Positions 10,103 through 30,063 of a stretch of DNA of 64,000 bases are shown piece after piece. A program made the translations under genes and the position numbers. Below the pieces are notes generated by a model that was given only the letters and a program-made list of their open reading frames with translations, ran no database searches and had not been told where the DNA came from. Position 1 is the first letter of the stretch. The number at the start of each line of letters is the position of its first letter. Origin of the DNA: Stutzerimonas stutzeri (GTDB lineage: Bacteria; Pseudomonadota; Gammaproteobacteria; Pseudomonadales; Pseudomonadaceae); contig NC_015740.1 in assembly GCF_000219605.1 (NCBI RefSeq), forward strand, positions 2,728,001 through 2,792,000, in the 5' to 3' direction.

Positions 10103-10933
10103 TCAATGTGTTTTCGGCTTCGCCGCGTCGTGCATATGCTTGACCGCACCGCTGGCAATCAGCTCGGCCAGCGCAGTCACGTCGACCAGTGCGCACATGT
10201 GTTCGATCACCGTGCCGGCCAGCCAGGGGCGCTGATGACGCTGGGTGCGCCACTTCACCTCGCTAGGGTCCAGACGAATCGAGCGGCTCACCTGGTGCAC
10301 CGCCAGCCCCCACTCGTAGCCCTGGACAGAGATCACGTACTGCAGGCCCTCACGAAAATCGTCGCGATAACGGTCCGGCATCACCCAACGCGCGGTATCC
10401 AGTACTTTGAGATTGCCCGCCTGGCTCGGCAGTATGCCAAGAAACCAGCTGGGCTGACCGAACAGTGGGGTCAGTTCCTGCCCTGCCAGCGGATAGATGG
10501 AACCCAGACACACCAGCGGTACCGCCAGCGTCAGGCCGGCGACATCGAACAGCAGGCACTCGAAGGGCTCATCACCCCAACCCGGATGTGCTTGTGCCGG
10601 AACCTCCAGCGGTTCGCTGGCAGGCGGCGGTGCCACCAGCACTTCTACGACCGGTTCGGGGGCCGCTGGCGCCGCTACTGCTTCGGCAACGACCAGGGTC
10701 GGAGCGACAGGAGCCGTCTCGGGGACGGCAACCGGCGGCGCGGACGGCACGATTTCCAGCCGCGGAGGTTGGCTTTGCCGGATATCGCGCAGCTGCTCCT
10801 CGAGCACCGCGGCCTTGAATTCATCCTGACTGACCGAATCCGCCAGCTCGATGGCAGCATCCTGCAGCAGCCCATCGAGATAGGACTGCAGCGCCTGCTG
10901 GGATCGGGTTTCGGTGAGAACGGTGCGGTTCAT
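10103..10933 (-). CDS. CheW-domain protein, ParP-like array localisation factor
   Basis: About 276 residues starting MNRTVLTETRSQQ; an alternative in-frame ATG at 10975 adds 14 residues, and neither start has a clear Shine-Dalgarno. An N-terminal helix precedes a Pro/Ala/Val-rich linker (about 60-125), then a CheW-like domain (FDVAGLTLAVPLVCLGSIYPL ... LGILPSQAGNLKVLDTARWV). Together with the ParA-type ATPase encoded just upstream this fits the ParC/ParP pair of polar flagellates, where ParP binds CheA and receptor tips to hold arrays at the pole. The ParP assignment rests on context. Confidence 0.7.
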   Translation of the reverse strand: MNRTVLTETRSQQALQSYLDGLLQDAAIELADSVSQDEFKAAVLEEQLRDIRQSQPPRLEIVPSAPPVAVPETAPVAPTLVVAEAVAAPAAPEPVVEVLVAPPPASEPLEVPAQAHPGWGDEPFECLLFDVAGLTLAVPLVCLGSIYPLAGQELTPLFGQPSWFLGILPSQAGNLKVLDTARWVMPDRYRDDFREGLQYVISVQGYEWGLAVHQVSRSIRLDPSEVKWRTQRHQRPWLAGTVIEHMCALVDVTALAELIASGAVKHMHDAAKPKTH

Positions 10934-11019
10934 GGAGCGAACTCGTGATGAGAATCTGAACAGGCTATCGGCCATGTGCGCGACAAACTTGAGCCATCAG
11001 CCGCCGAGCGGCATGCCAT

Positions 11020-11808
11020 TCATGCCACCTGCGGTGAGGCTTGCGACGCCAGCAGATGCTTGAGCAGCGCACGATAGGCAATCACCGCCCGGCTGGCCGG
11101 GTCGAACTGCGACGGCGTCAGGCCGGCGCGGCTGGCATCGCGCAGGCGAGTATCGACCGGGATGAAGGCCGGCCACAGGTGATCGGCATAACCGGCACGC
11201 AGCACCTTGAGCGTGTTCATCGACGCCTGGGTCCGGCGATCGAACAGCGTCGGCACGATGGTGTACGGCAGCGCCTGCTTGCGCGACCGGTTGATCATCG
11301 CCAGCGTACTGACCATCCGCTCCAGCCCCTTCATCGCCAGGAACTCGGTCTGTACCGGAATCACCAGCTGCTGGCTCGCCGCCAGGGCATTGACCATCAG
11401 CACGCCAAGCAGTGGCGGACTGTCGATGATCGCGTAATCGAAATCCTGCCAGAGCTGAGAAAGACTCTTGGCGATCACCAGCCCGAGACCGTTCTGCCCC
11501 GGGGACTGGCGCTCCAGTGTCGCCAGCACGGTGCTCGACGGCATCAGCGAGATGCGCTCGTGGCTCGTGGCCAGCAGTAACTGCCAGGGCAGCCCCTCCG
11601 GAACGGTCCCCTGATGCTGGAACAGGTCGAATACGCTGTGCTCCAGATTGTCGGGATCGTGACCGAAATAGCTGGTCATCGAACCATGCGGGTCCAGATC
11701 CAGCACCACGACCCGTTTACCGGAGTCCGCCAGCAGACCTGCCAGCGCGACCGACGTGGTGGTCTTGCCCACTCCACCCTTTTGATTGGCTACAGCCCAG
11801 ACTCTCAT
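11020..11808 (-). CDS. ParA/Soj-family ATPase (ParC-like, polar chemotaxis positioning)
   Basis: 262 residues. Deviant Walker A motif KGGVGKTT at 10-17, switch region VVVLDLDPHGSMTSYFG, and Walker B-like YAIIDSPPLLG. No parB lies nearby; instead it sits between motD and a CheW-domain gene, the arrangement known from Vibrio and Pseudomonas ParC, which guides chemotaxis arrays to the old pole. This sets it apart from the chromosome-partition ParA. Confidence 0.85.
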   Translation of the reverse strand: MRVWAVANQKGGVGKTTTSVALAGLLADSGKRVVVLDLDPHGSMTSYFGHDPDNLEHSVFDLFQHQGTVPEGLPWQLLLATSHERISLMPSSTVLATLERQSPGQNGLGLVIAKSLSQLWQDFDYAIIDSPPLLGVLMVNALAASQQLVIPVQTEFLAMKGLERMVSTLAMINRSRKQALPYTIVPTLFDRRTQASMNTLKVLRAGYADHLWPAFIPVDTRLRDASRAGLTPSQFDPASRAVIAYRALLKHLLASQASPQVA

Positions 11809-14645: not shown

Positions 14646-16874
14646 TCAAACCCTGCGCGCGTACCGCTTGAGCATGCTGGGCACATCGAGAATCAGAGCG
14701 ATGCGGCCATCGCCGGTGATGGTCGCGCCGGACATGCCGGGCGTACCCTGCAGCATCTTGCCCAGTGGCTTGATAACCACCTCTTCCTGGCCAACCAGCT
14801 GATCGACGACGAAGCCGATGCTCTGGTTGCCGACGCTGAGAATCACCACGTGACCTTCGCGCTGCTCTTCCTGAGCGGCGTCATGGACCAGCCAGCGCTT
14901 GAGGTAGAACAACGGCAGCGCCTTGTCGCGCACGATCACCACTTCCTGACCGTCGACGACGTTGGTACGCGACAGGTCCAGGTGGAAGATCTCGTTGACG
15001 TTGACCAGCGGGAAGGCGAACGCCTGGTTGCCAAGCATCACCATCAGCGTCGGCATGATTGCCAGGGTCAGCGGCACCTTGATCACCACCTTCGAGCCCT
15101 GGCCCTTGGTGGAGAACACGTTGACCGTACCGTTGAGCTGGGAAATCTTGGTCTTGACCACGTCCATGCCGACGCCGCGGCCGGACACGTCGGAAATCTC
15201 GGTCTTGGTCGAAAAGCCCGGCGCGAAGATCAGGTTGTAGCACTCCAGATCGCTCAGGCGGTCTGCGGCATCCTTCTCCAGCATGCCCTTTTCCACAGCC
15301 TTGGCACGCAGGATGTTGGCATCCATACCCTTGCCGTCATCACTGATGACCAGCAGGATATGGTCGCCTTCCTGCTCGGCAGACAGCACCACTCGACCGG
15401 TACGCGGCTTGCCGGCGGCCTCGCGCTCCTCCGGCATCTCGATACCGTGGTCGACGGCGTTGCGCACCAGGTGCACCAGCGGATCGGCCAGGGCCTCGAC
15501 CAGGTTCTTGTCGAGGTCGGTTTCCTCGCCCACCAGCTCCAGGTTGATCTCTTTCTTCAGGCTGCGCGCCAGATCGCGAACCAGTCGCGGGAAGCGACCG
15601 AACACTTTCTTGATCGGCTGCATGCGGGTCTTCATCACCGCGCTCTGCAGGTCGGCGGTGACCACGTCGAGGTTGGAAACGGCCTTGGCCATCGCCTCGT
15701 CGCCGCTATTGGAACCCAGGCGCACCAGGCGGTTACGGACCAGCACCAGTTCGCCGACCATGTTCATGATCTCGTCGAGGCGCGCGGTATCGACACGCAC
15801 GGTCGTCTCGACTTCGGCCGGAGCCTTGTCCGCCGCGGCCGGTGCCGGAGCGGCCGCCTTGCTTGCTGCCGCGGCCGGCTTGGCTGGCGCAGCGGCACGT
15901 GCGGGCTCCGCCTTGGGTGCCGCCTTTGCCGGGGCTGCCGCAACGGGCTCGGCCGGGGACGCATCGGCGACCGCCGGCTCGAACTTGCCCTTGCCGTGCA
16001 GCTGATCGAGCAGCGCTTCGAACTCGTCGTCGGTTATTTCGTCGCTGGACGCCGCGGGCGCACTGTCCTTGGCGGACTCGGCGCCGGCCGCTTCGGCCGA
16101 CGAGCCGGCGACCGAGCCGACTGGCTCGAACTTGCCCTTGCCGTGCAGCTGGTCGAGAAGTGCTTCGAATTCCTCATCGGTGATTTCATCACCGGTCTTT
16201 GCAGCGGCTGCATCTGGCGCAACAGGTACCGCAGGCGCTGCGGCGCTAGCCGGTGCCGAGAACTGGCCCTTGCCATGCAACTGATCGAGCAGCGACTCGA
16301 ATTCGTCGTCGGTGATCTCGTCGGTGACGGGGCCGTGTTCGGCCTCGCTCGCAGCCGTCTCGCTCGCAGCCGGCTGGATCGCGTCGAGCAACTGCTCGAA
16401 CTCGCTATCGGCGCCAGCGGGCTCGGCCTCAGGCTCGGCGACCACCTGCGGGGCAGCCGGAACGACTGGCGCCGCATCGGCGGAAGCGGGCTCGGCGAGG
16501 CGCGCAAGCGCAGCCAGCAGCTCGGGTGAGGCTGGCGTCGGCTCGACGCGTTCGCGGACCTGACTGAACATTTCGTTCACGGCGTCCAGCGCCTGCAGAA
16601 CGACATCCATCAGTTCGGAATCGACGCGACGCTCACCCTTGCGCAGGATGTCGAAGACGTTTTCGGCGATATGGCAGCACTCCACCAGCTCATGAAGCTG
16701 AAGGAAGCCTGCACCGCCCTTGACCGTGTGGAACCCGCGAAAAATCGCATTGAGCAACGCCATGTCATCGGGGCTGCTTTCCAGCTCCACGAGTTGCTCG
16801 GACAATAGTTCGAGAATCTCGCCGGCCTCTACCAGGAAGTCCTGGAGGATTTCTTCATCGGCGTCGAAGCTCAT
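14646..16874 (-). CDS. cheA: Chemotaxis histidine kinase CheA with triplicated linker motif
   Basis: 742 residues. The Hpt domain covers about 1-105 with phospho-H49 (FHTVKGGAGF). A long low-complexity linker follows (about 110-355) where a P2 domain is expected. Then come the dimerisation helices, the ATPase domain (N box VRNAVDHGIE, G1 DDGKGMD, G2 GRGVGMDVV) and the CheW-like regulatory domain. In the linker three near-identical 21-residue units (185-205, 229-249, 278-298; core DEFEALLDQLHGKG) and one degenerate copy (157-165) resemble CheY-binding peptides. The ATG is retained, but an IS630 insertion has replaced everything upstream of it, including the native ribosome site. A weak AGG at the IS end, five bases from the ATG, may serve instead. 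Confidence 0.96.
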   Translation of the reverse strand: MSFDADEEILQDFLVEAGEILELLSEQLVELESSPDDMALLNAIFRGFHTVKGGAGFLQLHELVECCHIAENVFDILRKGERRVDSELMDVVLQALDAVNEMFSQVRERVEPTPASPELLAALARLAEPASADAAPVVPAAPQVVAEPEAEPAGADSEFEQLLDAIQPAASETAASEAEHGPVTDEITDDEFESLLDQLHGKGQFSAPASAAAPAVPVAPDAAAAKTGDEITDEEFEALLDQLHGKGKFEPVGSVAGSSAEAAGAESAKDSAPAASSDEITDDEFEALLDQLHGKGKFEPAVADASPAEPVAAAPAKAAPKAEPARAAAPAKPAAAASKAAAPAPAAADKAPAEVETTVRVDTARLDEIMNMVGELVLVRNRLVRLGSNSGDEAMAKAVSNLDVVTADLQSAVMKTRMQPIKKVFGRFPRLVRDLARSLKKEINLELVGEETDLDKNLVEALADPLVHLVRNAVDHGIEMPEEREAAGKPRTGRVVLSAEQEGDHILLVISDDGKGMDANILRAKAVEKGMLEKDAADRLSDLECYNLIFAPGFSTKTEISDVSGRGVGMDVVKTKISQLNGTVNVFSTKGQGSKVVIKVPLTLAIMPTLMVMLGNQAFAFPLVNVNEIFHLDLSRTNVVDGQEVVIVRDKALPLFYLKRWLVHDAAQEEQREGHVVILSVGNQSIGFVVDQLVGQEEVVIKPLGKMLQGTPGMSGATITGDGRIALILDVPSMLKRYARRV

Positions 16875-16875
16875 A

Positions 16876-17982
16876 TTAACCTGGCAAATAAATAGGGCAT
16901 ATTAGATAATCTGTCTCCATGAAAATAGATGCCCGTAAACTCAGCCCCCAAGAACAACGTGAAAAGCGCTCCACGGCCCTACGCATGCGTGAGCAGGGTT
17001 ACACCTACAAGGCTATTGGCGAAGCGGTTGGTGTTCACCCCCGCACTATTGCTCACTGGGCGCAGGTCGCAGAACATAAAGGCGAAAAGGCTGCCATTGC
17101 CGGCGGCCAGCGTGGTGTGCGCCAGGGTGATCGCCGCAGTTTGAGCTCCAGCCAGGAAGTGCTGATTCGCACCTTGATGACCGATAAGATGCCCGACCAA
17201 CTCAAGCTCGGCTTTGCGCTCTGGACGCGTGATGCGGTGCGAGAACTGATCCGCCAGCGCTGTGGTTTTCTCATGCCGGTTCGAACGGTTGGTGAATACC
17301 TCAAGCGTTGGGGCTACACCCCGCAGCGCCCACTGCATCGGGCTTATCAGCAGAAACCTGAAGTGGTTCAGCACTGGCTGGATAATGAATATCCACGCAT
17401 CGCACAGCGGGCCAAGGCTGAGAATGGTGAGATTCAGTGGGGCGACGAAACCGGTATGCGCAGTGACAGCCATGCTGGCCGCAGCTACGCCCCTATTGGC
17501 GAAACGCCGGTGCGCCTGGTCAGCGGCAGTCGTTTTTCCACCAACATGATTTCCACCGTGACCAATCGGGGCAAACTGCGCTTCATGCTGTATCGGGAAA
17601 CGCTGACAGCCCCAGTGCTGATTCGCTTCCTGAGTCGCCTGATTCGCGATGCTCAGGGCCGCAAGGTGTTCCTGATTCTCGACAACCTGCGCGTACACCA
17701 CAGCAAAAAGGTGAGCGCCTGGGTTGGCGACCGCAAAGAGCAAATCGAACTGTTCTTCTTGCCGGCCTACGCCCCGGAGTTGAACCCTGACGAGTATTTG
17801 AATTGTGATTTGAAACATCAGGTTCGCACGGGCTTGCCGGCGCGTAATCAGGACGAACTGGAAAGGCGTGTTCGCTCGGTCATGAGACGATTGCAATTAC
17901 GCCCTCAAAGAATCCGTTCTTATTTCCGGCATCCACGTATCGCCTACGCAGCATGATTTGGTGTATTTGATTGCCGGGTTAA
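16876..17982 (+). mobile_element. IS630-family insertion sequence, 1107 bp, between cheZ and cheA
   Basis: Terminal inverted repeats at 16876-16894 and 17964-17982 (TTAACCTGGCAAATAAATA and the complement of TTAACCCGGCAATCAAATA) match at 16 of 19 positions. A TA dinucleotide flanks both ends (16874-16875 and 17983-17984), the target duplication expected for IS630/Tc1 elements. The element carries one transposase gene, on the strand opposite to the che operon. Joining the flanks restores an operon-like junction in which the cheZ stop is followed, 11 bases on, by the cheA ATG with an AGGGGAAG site. Confidence 0.93.
16919..17956 (+). CDS. IS630-family transposase
   Basis: 345 residues, apparently intact. 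The N-terminal helix-turn-helix (YTYKAIGEAVGVHPRTIAHW) is followed by a second DNA-binding part. The DDE catalytic core has WGDETG, LDNLRVHHS and the acidic pair in NPDEYLN. Length agrees with full IS630 enzymes, and no frameshift is seen. No Shine-Dalgarno precedes the ATG; a GATAAT box ends only 8 bases upstream, which suggests a leaderless message. Codon use and base composition are a little less GC-rich than in the flanking che genes. Confidence 0.93.
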   Translation: MKIDARKLSPQEQREKRSTALRMREQGYTYKAIGEAVGVHPRTIAHWAQVAEHKGEKAAIAGGQRGVRQGDRRSLSSSQEVLIRTLMTDKMPDQLKLGFALWTRDAVRELIRQRCGFLMPVRTVGEYLKRWGYTPQRPLHRAYQQKPEVVQHWLDNEYPRIAQRAKAENGEIQWGDETGMRSDSHAGRSYAPIGETPVRLVSGSRFSTNMISTVTNRGKLRFMLYRETLTAPVLIRFLSRLIRDAQGRKVFLILDNLRVHHSKKVSAWVGDRKEQIELFFLPAYAPELNPDEYLNCDLKHQVRTGLPARNQDELERRVRSVMRRLQLRPQRIRSYFRHPRIAYAA

Positions 17983-17994
17983 TATTCACTTCCC

Positions 17995-18789
17995 CTAAAA
18001 GCCCAGGCTTGAAAGCAGATCATCGACATCGTCCTGGCCGGAAACGACATCTTCACGCATATCGGCATGCATCTGCGGACCTTCACCGTTGGAAGGCATT
18101 TTTTCTTGTTTTTTCTTCTCTTGCTCGGCGCGCATGGCATCGCGGTCGTGCTGGATGCCGGCAACGCGGTCCACCTGCCCCGCCATGAGGACGAGATTGA
18201 GCAGGTTGCTTTCAAGCTCGGTGATCAGTCGGGTCACCCGCTTGATCACCTGGCCGGTTAGATCCTGGAAGTCCTGGGCCAGCATGATCTCGCTGAGATT
18301 CTGCGAAAGCTGGCTGCCATCGTTCATGCTGCGCTGCAGGTACTGGTCGATGCGCTTGACCAGATCGCGGAACTGCTCGGCATTCATGTCACGGCGCATG
18401 AAGCGCTGCCAATCGGCCGTCAGGCTCTGGGCCTCGTAGCTGACATAGTTCACCAGCGGGGCCGATTCCTCGACCAGGTCCATGGTGCGATTGGCGGCTT
18501 TCTCGGTCATTTCCACCACGTAGGACAGACGGTCAGTGGCATCGGTGATCGGTGACGGGTCGCCGCCCGTGGCGCAGGTGTCCATCTCGAGCTTGACGAT
18601 GGCGTTGTGCAGCTCGCGCGTGAGCTTGCCCACTTCCTGATAGAGCCCGTTGTTGCGCACCTGATTGAGCTCGTTGAACATCTGCGTCGCTTCATCGAAG
18701 CGGCCTTGCTGCAGGCTTTCAATCAGGCGGGGTGCATTGGCCTTCAGAGTCGCTTCGAACTCTGCCAGGCTTTGGTCTGCTTGCGTCAT
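17995..18789 (-). CDS. cheZ: CheY-P phosphatase CheZ
   Basis: 264 residues, mostly helical. The catalytic stretch is MLAQDFQDLTGQVIKRV, with the acidic and Gln residues that attack CheY-P. The C-terminal helix GQDDVDDLLSSLGF is the CheY-tethering peptide known from E. coli CheZ. Located between cheY and the inserted IS; before insertion its stop lay 11 bases from the cheA start. Terminates the signal by dephosphorylating CheY at the pole or motor. Confidence 0.96.
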   Translation of the reverse strand: MTQADQSLAEFEATLKANAPRLIESLQQGRFDEATQMFNELNQVRNNGLYQEVGKLTRELHNAIVKLEMDTCATGGDPSPITDATDRLSYVVEMTEKAANRTMDLVEESAPLVNYVSYEAQSLTADWQRFMRRDMNAEQFRDLVKRIDQYLQRSMNDGSQLSQNLSEIMLAQDFQDLTGQVIKRVTRLITELESNLLNLVLMAGQVDRVAGIQHDRDAMRAEQEKKKQEKMPSNGEGPQMHADMREDVVSGQDDVDDLLSSLGF

Positions 18790-18812: not shown

Positions 18813-19187
18813 TCAGCCGTTGACGCGCTCGAAGATCTTCTCGATCTTTTCCTTGAGCACCTGGGCGGTGAAGGGTTTGACCACATAGCCATTGACCCCG
18901 GCCTGGGCCGCTTCGATGATCTGATCGCGCTTCGCCTCGGCGGTCACCATCAGTACCGGCAGATGCTTGAGGCGCTCGTCCGCGCGCACTGTGCGCAGCA
19001 GATCGATACCGCTCATGCCCGGCATGTTCCAGTCGGTGACCAGGAAATCGAAGCTGCCGCTTTTCAGCATCGGCAGTGCGGTGGTGCCGTCGTCCGCCTC
19101 GGCGGTGTTGGTGAACCCCAGATCACGCAAGAGGTTCTTGATGATTCGTCTCATCGTCGAGAAGTCATCGACGATGAGGATTTTCAT
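18813..19187 (-). CDS. cheY: Chemotaxis response regulator CheY
   Basis: 124 residues from the ATG at 19187, giving [15 protein letters not shown] as in known CheY proteins. Key residues are D7/D8, phospho-D52, T82, Y101 and K104 (VKPF). Phosphorylated by CheA, it binds FliM/FliN to change motor rotation. An in-frame TTG at 19199 stands five bases after a GGAGG, a better ribosome site than the ATG has, and would add four residues (MDKN). Which start is used is open. Confidence 0.96.
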
Positions 19188-19261
19188 GTTCTTGTCCAAG
19201 TCGACCTCCGTAAGTCCCAAAATGCCTCAGCAAACCGAGCACGTCATACCGCAAACAATTG

Positions 19262-28568: not shown

Positions 28569-29051
28569 TCAGCGCAACTTCTTGATGCGTTCGGTGGGGC
28601 TGATCACATCGGTCAGCCGGATACCGAACTTCTCGTTGACCACCACCACTTCGCCGTGGGCGATCAGCGTCCCATTGACCAGTACGTCCAGTGGCTCGCC
28701 GGCCAGTCGATCGAGCTCCACCACCGAGCCCTGATTGAGCTGCAGCAGATTGCGGATGCTGATCTCGGTACTGCCGACCTCCATCGAAATCGATACGGGA
28801 ATGTCGAGGATGACGTCCAGGTTCGGGCCGTCCAGCCCCAGCTGCATACCATTGGATTTCGGCGCACTGGCAAAATCCTCCAGCGGCGCGCGCGGCGCCG
28901 CGGGTGCGGCGGGCGCCGCCGCTGCCGGCCCTTGGTTCAGCAGCGCATCGATATCGTCCTGGGAGGCATCGCCCGCCTCGGCCAGGGCCGCGGCCCACTC
29001 GTCGGCCAGCGCCTGTTCCTCGGGGGATGTAGTGTCGCGTTCGTCTGCCAT
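28569..29051 (-). CDS. fliN: Flagellar motor switch protein FliN
   Basis: 160 residues from the ATG at 29051 (MADERDTTSPEEQ). The C-terminal SpoA domain covers about 80-160 (LDVILDIPVSISMEVGSTE ... VVVNEKFGIRLTDVISPTERI). The N-terminal extension holds SQDDIDALL at 30-38, the CheY-binding motif type also seen in FliM. Forms the C-ring with FliM and FliG. Confidence 0.96.
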   Translation of the reverse strand: MADERDTTSPEEQALADEWAAALAEAGDASQDDIDALLNQGPAAAAPAAPAAPRAPLEDFASAPKSNGMQLGLDGPNLDVILDIPVSISMEVGSTEISIRNLLQLNQGSVVELDRLAGEPLDVLVNGTLIAHGEVVVVNEKFGIRLTDVISPTERIKKLR

Positions 29052-29091: not shown

Positions 29092-30063
29092 TCAGCGTGG
29101 GCGAACCACGGGTTCCAGCACCTGCAATGCCAGGTTGCCCTTGTGGGCACCCAGCTTGACCTTGAAGGCCGGCATGCCATTGGCGCGCATGATCATGTCT
29201 TCCGGCATTTCCACGGGAATCACATCGCCGGGCTGCATGTTGAGAATGTCGCGCAGCTTGAGCTGGCGGCGCACAACCGTCGCACCCAGCGGAACATTGA
29301 CGTCCAGGATGTCCTCGCGCAGAGCCTTGACCCAGCGCTCGTCCTGGTCGCTGACATCGGACTGGAAACCGGCATCGAGCATCTCGCGGATCGGCTCGAT
29401 CATCGAATAGGGCATGGTCACGTGCAGATCGCCGCCGCCACTGTCCAGCTCGATGTGGAAGGTGGACACCACCACCACCTCGCTGGGGCTGACGATGTTG
29501 GCCAGCGCCGGGTTCACCTCTGAGTTGACGTACTCGAAGTTGACGTCCAGCACCGCGTGCCAGGCTTCCTTCAGATCGGCAAAGGCTTGATCCAGCACCA
29601 TGCGCACGACGCGCAGCTCGGTCGGGGTGAACTCGCGGCCCTCGATCTTGGCGTGGCGCCCGTCGCCTCCGAAGAAATTGTCCACCAGCTTGAACACCAG
29701 CTTGGCGTCGAGGATGAACAATGCCGTGCCACGCAGCGGCTTCATCTTCACCAGGTTGAGGCTGGTCGGCACGTACAGCGAATGCACGTACTCGCCGAAC
29801 TTCATCACCTGGACGCCGCCCACCGAGACATCGGCCGAGCGGCGCAACAGGTTGAACATGCTGATGCGGGTATAACGGGCGAAACGCTCGTTGATCATTT
29901 CCAGCGTGGGCATGCGCCCGCGCACGATACGGTCCTGACTGGTCAGGTCGTAGCTCTTGATGGACCCCGGCTCGGAATCGCTTTCGGTATCCACCAGACC
30001 GTCGTCGACCCCGTGCAGGAGCGCATCGATCTCGTCTTGCGAGAGCAGGTCTTGAACAGCCAT
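29092..30063 (-). CDS. fliM: Flagellar motor switch protein FliM
   Basis: 323 residues from the ATG at 30063 (MAVQDLLSQDEIDALLHG). The first 16 residues hold the CheY-P-binding motif SQDEIDALL (8-16). The CheC-like middle domain with the GGxG region (FGGDGRHAKIEGREFTPTE) and the C-terminal SpoA domain follow. Receives CheY-P and transmits it to FliG. Fourteen bases after fliL. Confidence 0.97.
   Translation of the reverse strand: MAVQDLLSQDEIDALLHGVDDGLVDTESDSEPGSIKSYDLTSQDRIVRGRMPTLEMINERFARYTRISMFNLLRRSADVSVGGVQVMKFGEYVHSLYVPTSLNLVKMKPLRGTALFILDAKLVFKLVDNFFGGDGRHAKIEGREFTPTELRVVRMVLDQAFADLKEAWHAVLDVNFEYVNSEVNPALANIVSPSEVVVVSTFHIELDSGGGDLHVTMPYSMIEPIREMLDAGFQSDVSDQDERWVKALREDILDVNVPLGATVVRRQLKLRDILNMQPGDVIPVEMPEDMIMRANGMPAFKVKLGAHKGNLALQVLEPVVRPR

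Follow-up and report, generated by a model that had tools for sequence, protein, structure and literature searches.

The chemotaxis kinase CheA encoded in a 64,000-nucleotide stretch of Stutzerimonas stutzeri DNA (the window, hereafter) contains three near-identical 21-residue units and one worn unit in the linker between its Hpt domain and P3. These repeats are a real feature, nearly universal in this class of CheA and unremarked as far as we searched the literature. Sequence comparisons favor a reading in which they form a multivalent dock for CheY in place of the P2 domain, to which we assign a probability of roughly 0.55. CheY docking is the likeliest job of the repeats and docking of ParP its main rival, and both jobs together are possible.

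The full copies read DEITDDEFESLLDQLHGKGQF (residues 185-205), DEITDEEFEALLDQLHGKGKF (229-249), and DEITDDEFEALLDQLHGKGKF (278-298), with the first base of residue 185 at 16322 and the last base of residue 298 at 15981. Both the letters and the coordinates bear out the initial annotation, which had reported the three repeats at 15981..16322 together with a worn copy, SEFEQLLDA, at residues 157-165. This worn copy is likewise present and is recognized by a motif matrix, built from 53 linkers including that of the window. The matrix scores the four copies, worn copy first and then copies 1-3, at 21, 70, 69, and 73, while shuffled linkers top out at -1.3 (1,060 shuffles, 20 for each of the 53 linkers). 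A chance origin of the repeats is ruled out by these shuffled linkers and by 58 linkers outside the matrix. Any two full copies share 18-20 of 21 residues but only 51-55 of the 63 bases, and each such pair differs by 6-8 synonymous codons. Because the full copies differ mostly by synonymous codons, it appears that selection at the protein level keeps the repeats, and recent DNA duplication was rejected as their origin on the same ground.

Table 1. Positions in the window of cheA, its linker repeats, and the genes and peptides discussed with them
Feature	Position	Strand	Basis
cheA, 742 aa	14646..16874	-	Hpt 8-100, linker about 110-355, P3 357-416, HATPase, CheW domain; Pfam
Worn repeat copy, residues 157-165 (SEFEQLLDA)	16380..16406	-	matrix score 21; low-confidence AlphaFold2 helix 157-165
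Repeat copy 1, residues 185-205	16260..16322	-	motif matrix; AlphaFold2 helix 189-199
Repeat copy 2, residues 229-249	16128..16190	-	motif matrix; AlphaFold2 helix 233-244
Repeat copy 3, residues 278-298	15981..16043	-	motif matrix; AlphaFold2 helix 282-292
cheY, proposed partner	18813..19220	-	Pfam Response_reg; basic alpha5: K117, K119, K122, R126 (E. coli numbering)
CheZ C-terminal peptide QDDVDDLLSSLGF, CheY-binding type	17998..18036	-	sequence; CheZ by Pfam
FliM N-terminal peptide SQDEIDALLHG, residues 8-18, CheY-binding type	30007..30039	-	sequence
FliN N-terminal FliM-like peptide SQDDIDALL	28938..28964	-	sequence
parC, ParA-type ATPase	11020..11808	-	Pfam AAA_31; name by gene order and literature
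parP, N-terminal peptide and CheW-like domain	10103..10975	-	Pfam CheW; name by gene order and literature

The gene lies in a minus-strand row of cheY, cheZ, cheA, cheB, motC, motD, parC, parP, and cheW, in which the names without Pfam support are presumptive, assigned by gene order and recall. An IS630-type element (DDE_3) is inserted between cheZ and cheA at 16866-17992, with terminal inverted repeats at 16866-16894 and 17964-17992. One end of the element adjoins the start codon of cheA, so the DNA just upstream of this gene is apparently derived from the element.

The search for CheA covered 115 genomes from the order and 185 from the class; a match of at least 420 bits, taken to define the same CheA class, was reached in 119 genomes besides that of the window. 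The 119 CheA rows analyzed comprise the window and 118 of these genomes, G165 being excluded because its CheA is divided between two contigs. Complete linkers number 111, with L069, L088, L096, L099, L110, L156, L165, and L176 left out of the counts. Counting copies across relatives had been proposed with the initial annotation, and this count finds the repeat in 110 of the 111 complete linkers at 1-8 copies each: one copy in 7 linkers, two in 28, three in 46, four in 28, and eight in one. Linker L116, scored zero by the matrix, holds two degenerate copies on reading. Among linkers that did not contribute to the matrix, 57 of 58 contain a copy. The units follow the consensus DEITDDEFEALLDQLHGKG, in which E-F and LL are nearly invariant. 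In a 35-row alignment, identity to the window is 65-79% for the full copies, 48% for the worn copy, and 12-29% for the spacers; the spacing of repeats varies, with a median of 42 and a maximum of 73 residues. SHOCT labels placed on CheA in databases coincide with the repeat motif (residues 230-243 of the window CheA) and are probably misleading.

The window-type unit is also found in P. aeruginosa, in Aeromonas caviae, and, as one clean copy, on a plasmid of Photobacterium toruni, the Photobacterium and Aeromonas CheAs having been taken from plasmid records. The Photobacterium plasmid (L263, NZ_CP101697.1) encodes cheY-cheZ-cheA-cheW plus one more chemotaxis protein, and its annotation shows neither cheB nor parC nor parP next to these genes. 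A P. aeruginosa record given as an 847-kb plasmid (L265, NZ_CP131792.1) contains the region flhA-flhF-fleN-fliA-cheYZAB-motCD-parA. The eight-copy linker, L095, spans 584 residues of a 1,073-aa CheA frame and also contains a long AAPAKP tract. In the order of G220, none of the matches listed exceeds 395 bits, so none of these is a CheA of this class. We call the class F6 on the basis of gene content and of PMC7184735 and PMC7534058 rather than of published class models.

The repeat appears to be specific to CheA of this class. It is present in 0 of 20 CheAs of other classes (best matrix score -9.6), a set hand-picked from second-tier matches and including two short proteins without the Hpt pattern. 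Motif matches better than E 0.001 occur in 24 of 29 genomes, in each of them all within a single frame of 717-775 aa, and for the seven of these genomes in which the position of CheA is known, the matches all fall inside CheA. The remaining five genomes, in which a CheA match is absent or low-scoring, have no motif match better than 0.4. We considered whether the motif is common to other proteins of the genome and ruled this out, as nothing outside CheA-sized frames scores better than E 0.001 and the next match is at 0.0096. A stand-alone or receiver-fused motif protein was also sought; among the matches listed (120 of 459), all look like pieces of CheA, as judged from names and domains and from seven sequences that were read.

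No Pfam model of P2 or of a CheY-binding domain matches the window CheA, any of 35 CheAs of this class, or any of 10 in another set, Photobacterium and Aeromonas CheAs among them. These models are insensitive, matching only 4 of the 20 other-class CheAs, as is stated also in PMC10542144, so the absence of P2 rests also on one structure model. In this AlphaFold2 model of the window CheA (35 rows), the only helices of the linker are at residues 117-126, 157-165, 189-199, 233-244, and 282-292. Averages over blocks of ten residues reach 74-81 in the full copies against 54 in the worn copy, long stretches between the repeats fall below 50 pLDDT, and the linker contains no larger folded domain. The repeats are predicted to be isolated short helices within a disordered linker. 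A linker without a globular P2 at about residues 110-355 is what the initial annotation had described; a folded P2 was looked for by Pfam and by AlphaFold2, none was found, and a hidden P2 was rejected on both grounds.

FliM and CheZ peptides bind CheY. Peptides of this type in FliM (SQDEIDALLHG), FliN (SQDDIDALL), and CheZ (QDDVDDLLSSLGF) had been noted from the window alone, and all three are present as written. The accompanying claim that the repeat core resembles them holds for FliM and is weaker than implied for CheZ. Comparison of the CheA repeat with the FliM N-terminus by hhalign gives a probability of 68% (E 4.8e-5), compared with the 80.5% (E 1.3e-5) obtained for the known pair of FliM and CheZ, while the CheZ C-terminus gives a profile probability of 18%. 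Controls against the ParP peptide reach 6 and 9%; ParP has a conserved N-terminal peptide of its own, ALxxYLDxLL, without a profile match to the CheA or FliM peptides at these values. The FliM N-termini conform to DLLSQDEIDALLHG with little variation (36 read), and the CheZ end is the same as in the window in nearly all loci having CheZ. When a FliM decapeptide was used as a probe, the median best score was 28 for CheA and 29 for CheZ. A score of 28 was reached by 10 of 6,025 other open reading frames, comprising three FliM proteins, one N-terminal piece of a motif-bearing CheA, one other CheA, and five unrelated proteins, one of them a ParP. Shuffled linkers reached it in 3 of 5,550 cases (0.05%), and the 20 other-class CheAs score at most 27. 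On these comparisons the likeness of the repeat to the FliM N-terminus appears to be more than chance. As FliN also carries such a peptide near its start, CheY may find two sites on the motor.

The proposed partner is encoded close by. Within the locus stretches, 111 of 119 loci have cheY next to cheA; of the eight loci without it, most are short or truncated where a contig ends, but one, L082 (12.7 kb), has cheA and none of the other genes sought. The CheY alpha5 helix is basic in an alignment of 109 CheYs, with K or R at position 117 in 94, K119 in 109, and R126 in 109. Position 117 is non-basic in the other 15, among them the CheY of L062, which has E117 beside two intact motifs. In E. coli, the F7-type CheA has P2 and the FliM N-terminus is presumably unchanged. 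A further alignment places E at position 117 in Salmonella CheY. According to PMC7184735, a CheY recruited from a class F6 to a class F7 CheA acquired K117E and three P2-facing changes. The K117E shift would fit a change of dock from acidic peptides to P2, provided that the FliM N-terminus is the same in F7 species; L062 is a counterexample.

The repeats also persist where other candidate partners are missing. CheZ was not found in G135, G282, G214, or G261 (in the last of which a search did detect FliM), and 1-3 repeats are kept in these genomes. G147, one complete contig in which neither FliM nor FlhA was found, keeps three. The draft G018, where FliM was not found and FlhA is present, was not counted as a motorless case. 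Persistence of the repeats without detectable ParC and ParP (below), CheZ, or FliM points away from each of these as the only partner. The che cluster of G147 (L152, L036) is of this type, includes ParC/ParP, and apparently serves a chemosensory array without a flagellum. Next to the degenerate repeats of L116 (G138), CheY is the only one of the 109 that lacks F124, and it has A at position 117, while the start of FliM is normal; this is one event and proves nothing. Two further considerations count against CheY docking: the conserved DQLHGKG tail of the repeat could serve another partner, and convergence can make acidic N-capped helices resemble one another.

If the repeats are a CheY dock, the P1-P3 linker would be a disordered tether studded with short amphipathic helices, acidic and N-capped, that belong to the FliM N-terminal type. 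Each would bind CheY in P2's stead, probably on its alpha4-beta5-alpha5 face, and jointly they may raise the local concentration of CheY near the P1 phosphohistidine, with a presumed effect on phosphotransfer. Peptides of related type could then let kinase, motor, and phosphatase pass CheY among themselves, and the repeats may show a preference for CheY in one of its states. The dock may be open to CheB as well, and at least one copy may additionally serve ParP. A wider proposal, for which we would give somewhat less than even odds, is that a multivalent array of peptides like those of the motor has taken the place of P2 throughout the class of Pseudomonas, Aeromonas, Photobacterium, and others. 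Kinase, motor, and phosphatase would in that case hold CheY by related peptides, copy number would set its local concentration, and for polar anchoring ParP would draw on some of these peptides as well.

The main rival equates the repeats with the LID of CheA: they would dock the CheW-like (AIF) domain of ParP, which tethers the array to the pole through ParC, and would not bind CheY. It takes this place because reviews locate a ParP-binding LID of Vibrio CheA, between P2 and P3, in the stretch that holds the repeats, and the reviews (PMC7534058 and PMC5706961) also state that the LID occurs only with ParC and ParP. We consider it unlikely, though it is the strongest of the competitors. Within the stretch concerned, nothing is more conserved than the repeats, which, like the LID, lie shortly before P3 of an F6-type CheA, the last one ending 39-80 residues before P3 in most rows and up to 135 in a sampled list. 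In 87 of 111 loci, parC is within the locus, and copy number is higher there, with a mean of 3.05 (n = 87) versus 1.8 in genomes without detectable ParC/ParP (n = 9, G138 included; Mann-Whitney p 0.0009, uncorrected for kinship); the lower number leaves room for a role of ParP, alone or shared. The restriction to genomes with ParC and ParP, of which the ParP half is the weaker test, does not hold for the repeats: eight genomes (G009, G018, G123, G115, G135, G282, G139, and G267) keep 1-4 of them with neither protein detectable. The best ParC-like matches in these eight reach 111-131 bits (31-35% identity) and do not exceed the second, ParA-type matches in ParC-bearing genomes (133 in G270, 131.5 in G180), whereas ParC proper scores at least 201 bits. 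Matches to the ParP profile stay at or below 30 bits over the CheW-like part, with none in G267, and the window genome's own CheW scores 22 bits. Among nine ParC-bearing genomes, the same profile reaches at least 40 bits in six, 30.7 in G169, and 22.2 in G125 and finds nothing in G277, so the profile could overlook a ParP that has diverged. A quick tree covering 100 of the 119 rows needs eight changes of the ParC/ParP label, five or more of them forced, in a count that takes gains and losses together. ParP docking also leaves the likeness to FliM unexplained.

Less probable still is that the helices find their docking site within the array, be it P1, P4, or P5 of CheA itself, CheW, or the receptors, and thereby adjust the activity of the kinase or the packing of the array. 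Such partners are present in any working system, and the linker connects P1 to the kinase core, but AlphaFold2 shows isolated helices with disordered flanks in an output without contacts, 1-8 copies at variable spacing fit a fixed intramolecular site poorly, and the likeness to FliM would be chance. A dock for CheB in place of CheY, bringing the methylesterase to the kinase, seems to us very improbable. P2 docks both CheY and CheB according to PMC10542144, and CheB is encoded in all eight genomes checked; the peptides that the repeats resemble, however, are known CheY binders, and cheB was not seen in 12 of 119 loci within the stretches covered, L062 and L091 being uncut 20-kb stretches among these with intact motifs. 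We give least credence to the repeat being a SHOCT-like short self-association helix unrelated to response regulators. The SHOCT model matches 27 of 35 CheAs at E 0.01 or better (best 3.8e-9), and the label is precomputed for many relatives, but the window CheA scores 21.4 bits against a Pfam cut-off of 27, the family is named for a C-terminal place, and CheA dimerizes already by P3. CheY docking is the reading that we prefer over all of these.

A search of open full texts for the string EFEALLD returned no paper, and among titles and abstracts on CheA, P2, CheY binding, and FliM-like peptides, we found no description of such CheA repeats, subscription papers lying outside this search. Nearly 52% of CheA proteins lack P2 according to PMC10542144, and what, if anything, replaces it there is the question that the repeats address. 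If they are a dock, the question could be tested with short peptides in common laboratory pseudomonads, and a folded docking domain and a multivalent linear-motif array would be interchangeable. Direct competition for CheY among kinase, motor, and phosphatase would also be predicted, and part of the Vibrio LID could be recast.

Among known systems, SHOCT (PF09851) shares with the repeats a short helix of the type ITxEEFExL, from which the CheA repeats differ in being internal and multiple. The CheA-LID of Vibrio, known here from its published description, occupies the same stretch before P3 in the same chemosensory class, often with ParC/ParP adjoining, and differs in being reported only together with them. 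P2 (PF07194, PF09078) has the same position between Hpt and P3, that of a response-regulator dock, and on our reading would do the same job; it is a folded domain, present as a single copy in most CheAs (PMC10542144), whereas the repeats are 1-8 short helices. The FliM and CheZ peptides occur once, at a chain end, while the CheA repeats are internal and mostly repeated, have F where FliM has I, and end in a conserved DQLHGKG tail with no full counterpart in FliM or CheZ. The FliM core LSQDEIDALL nevertheless aligns without gaps with the CheA repeat ITDDEFEALL, each of them an acidic N-capped helix.
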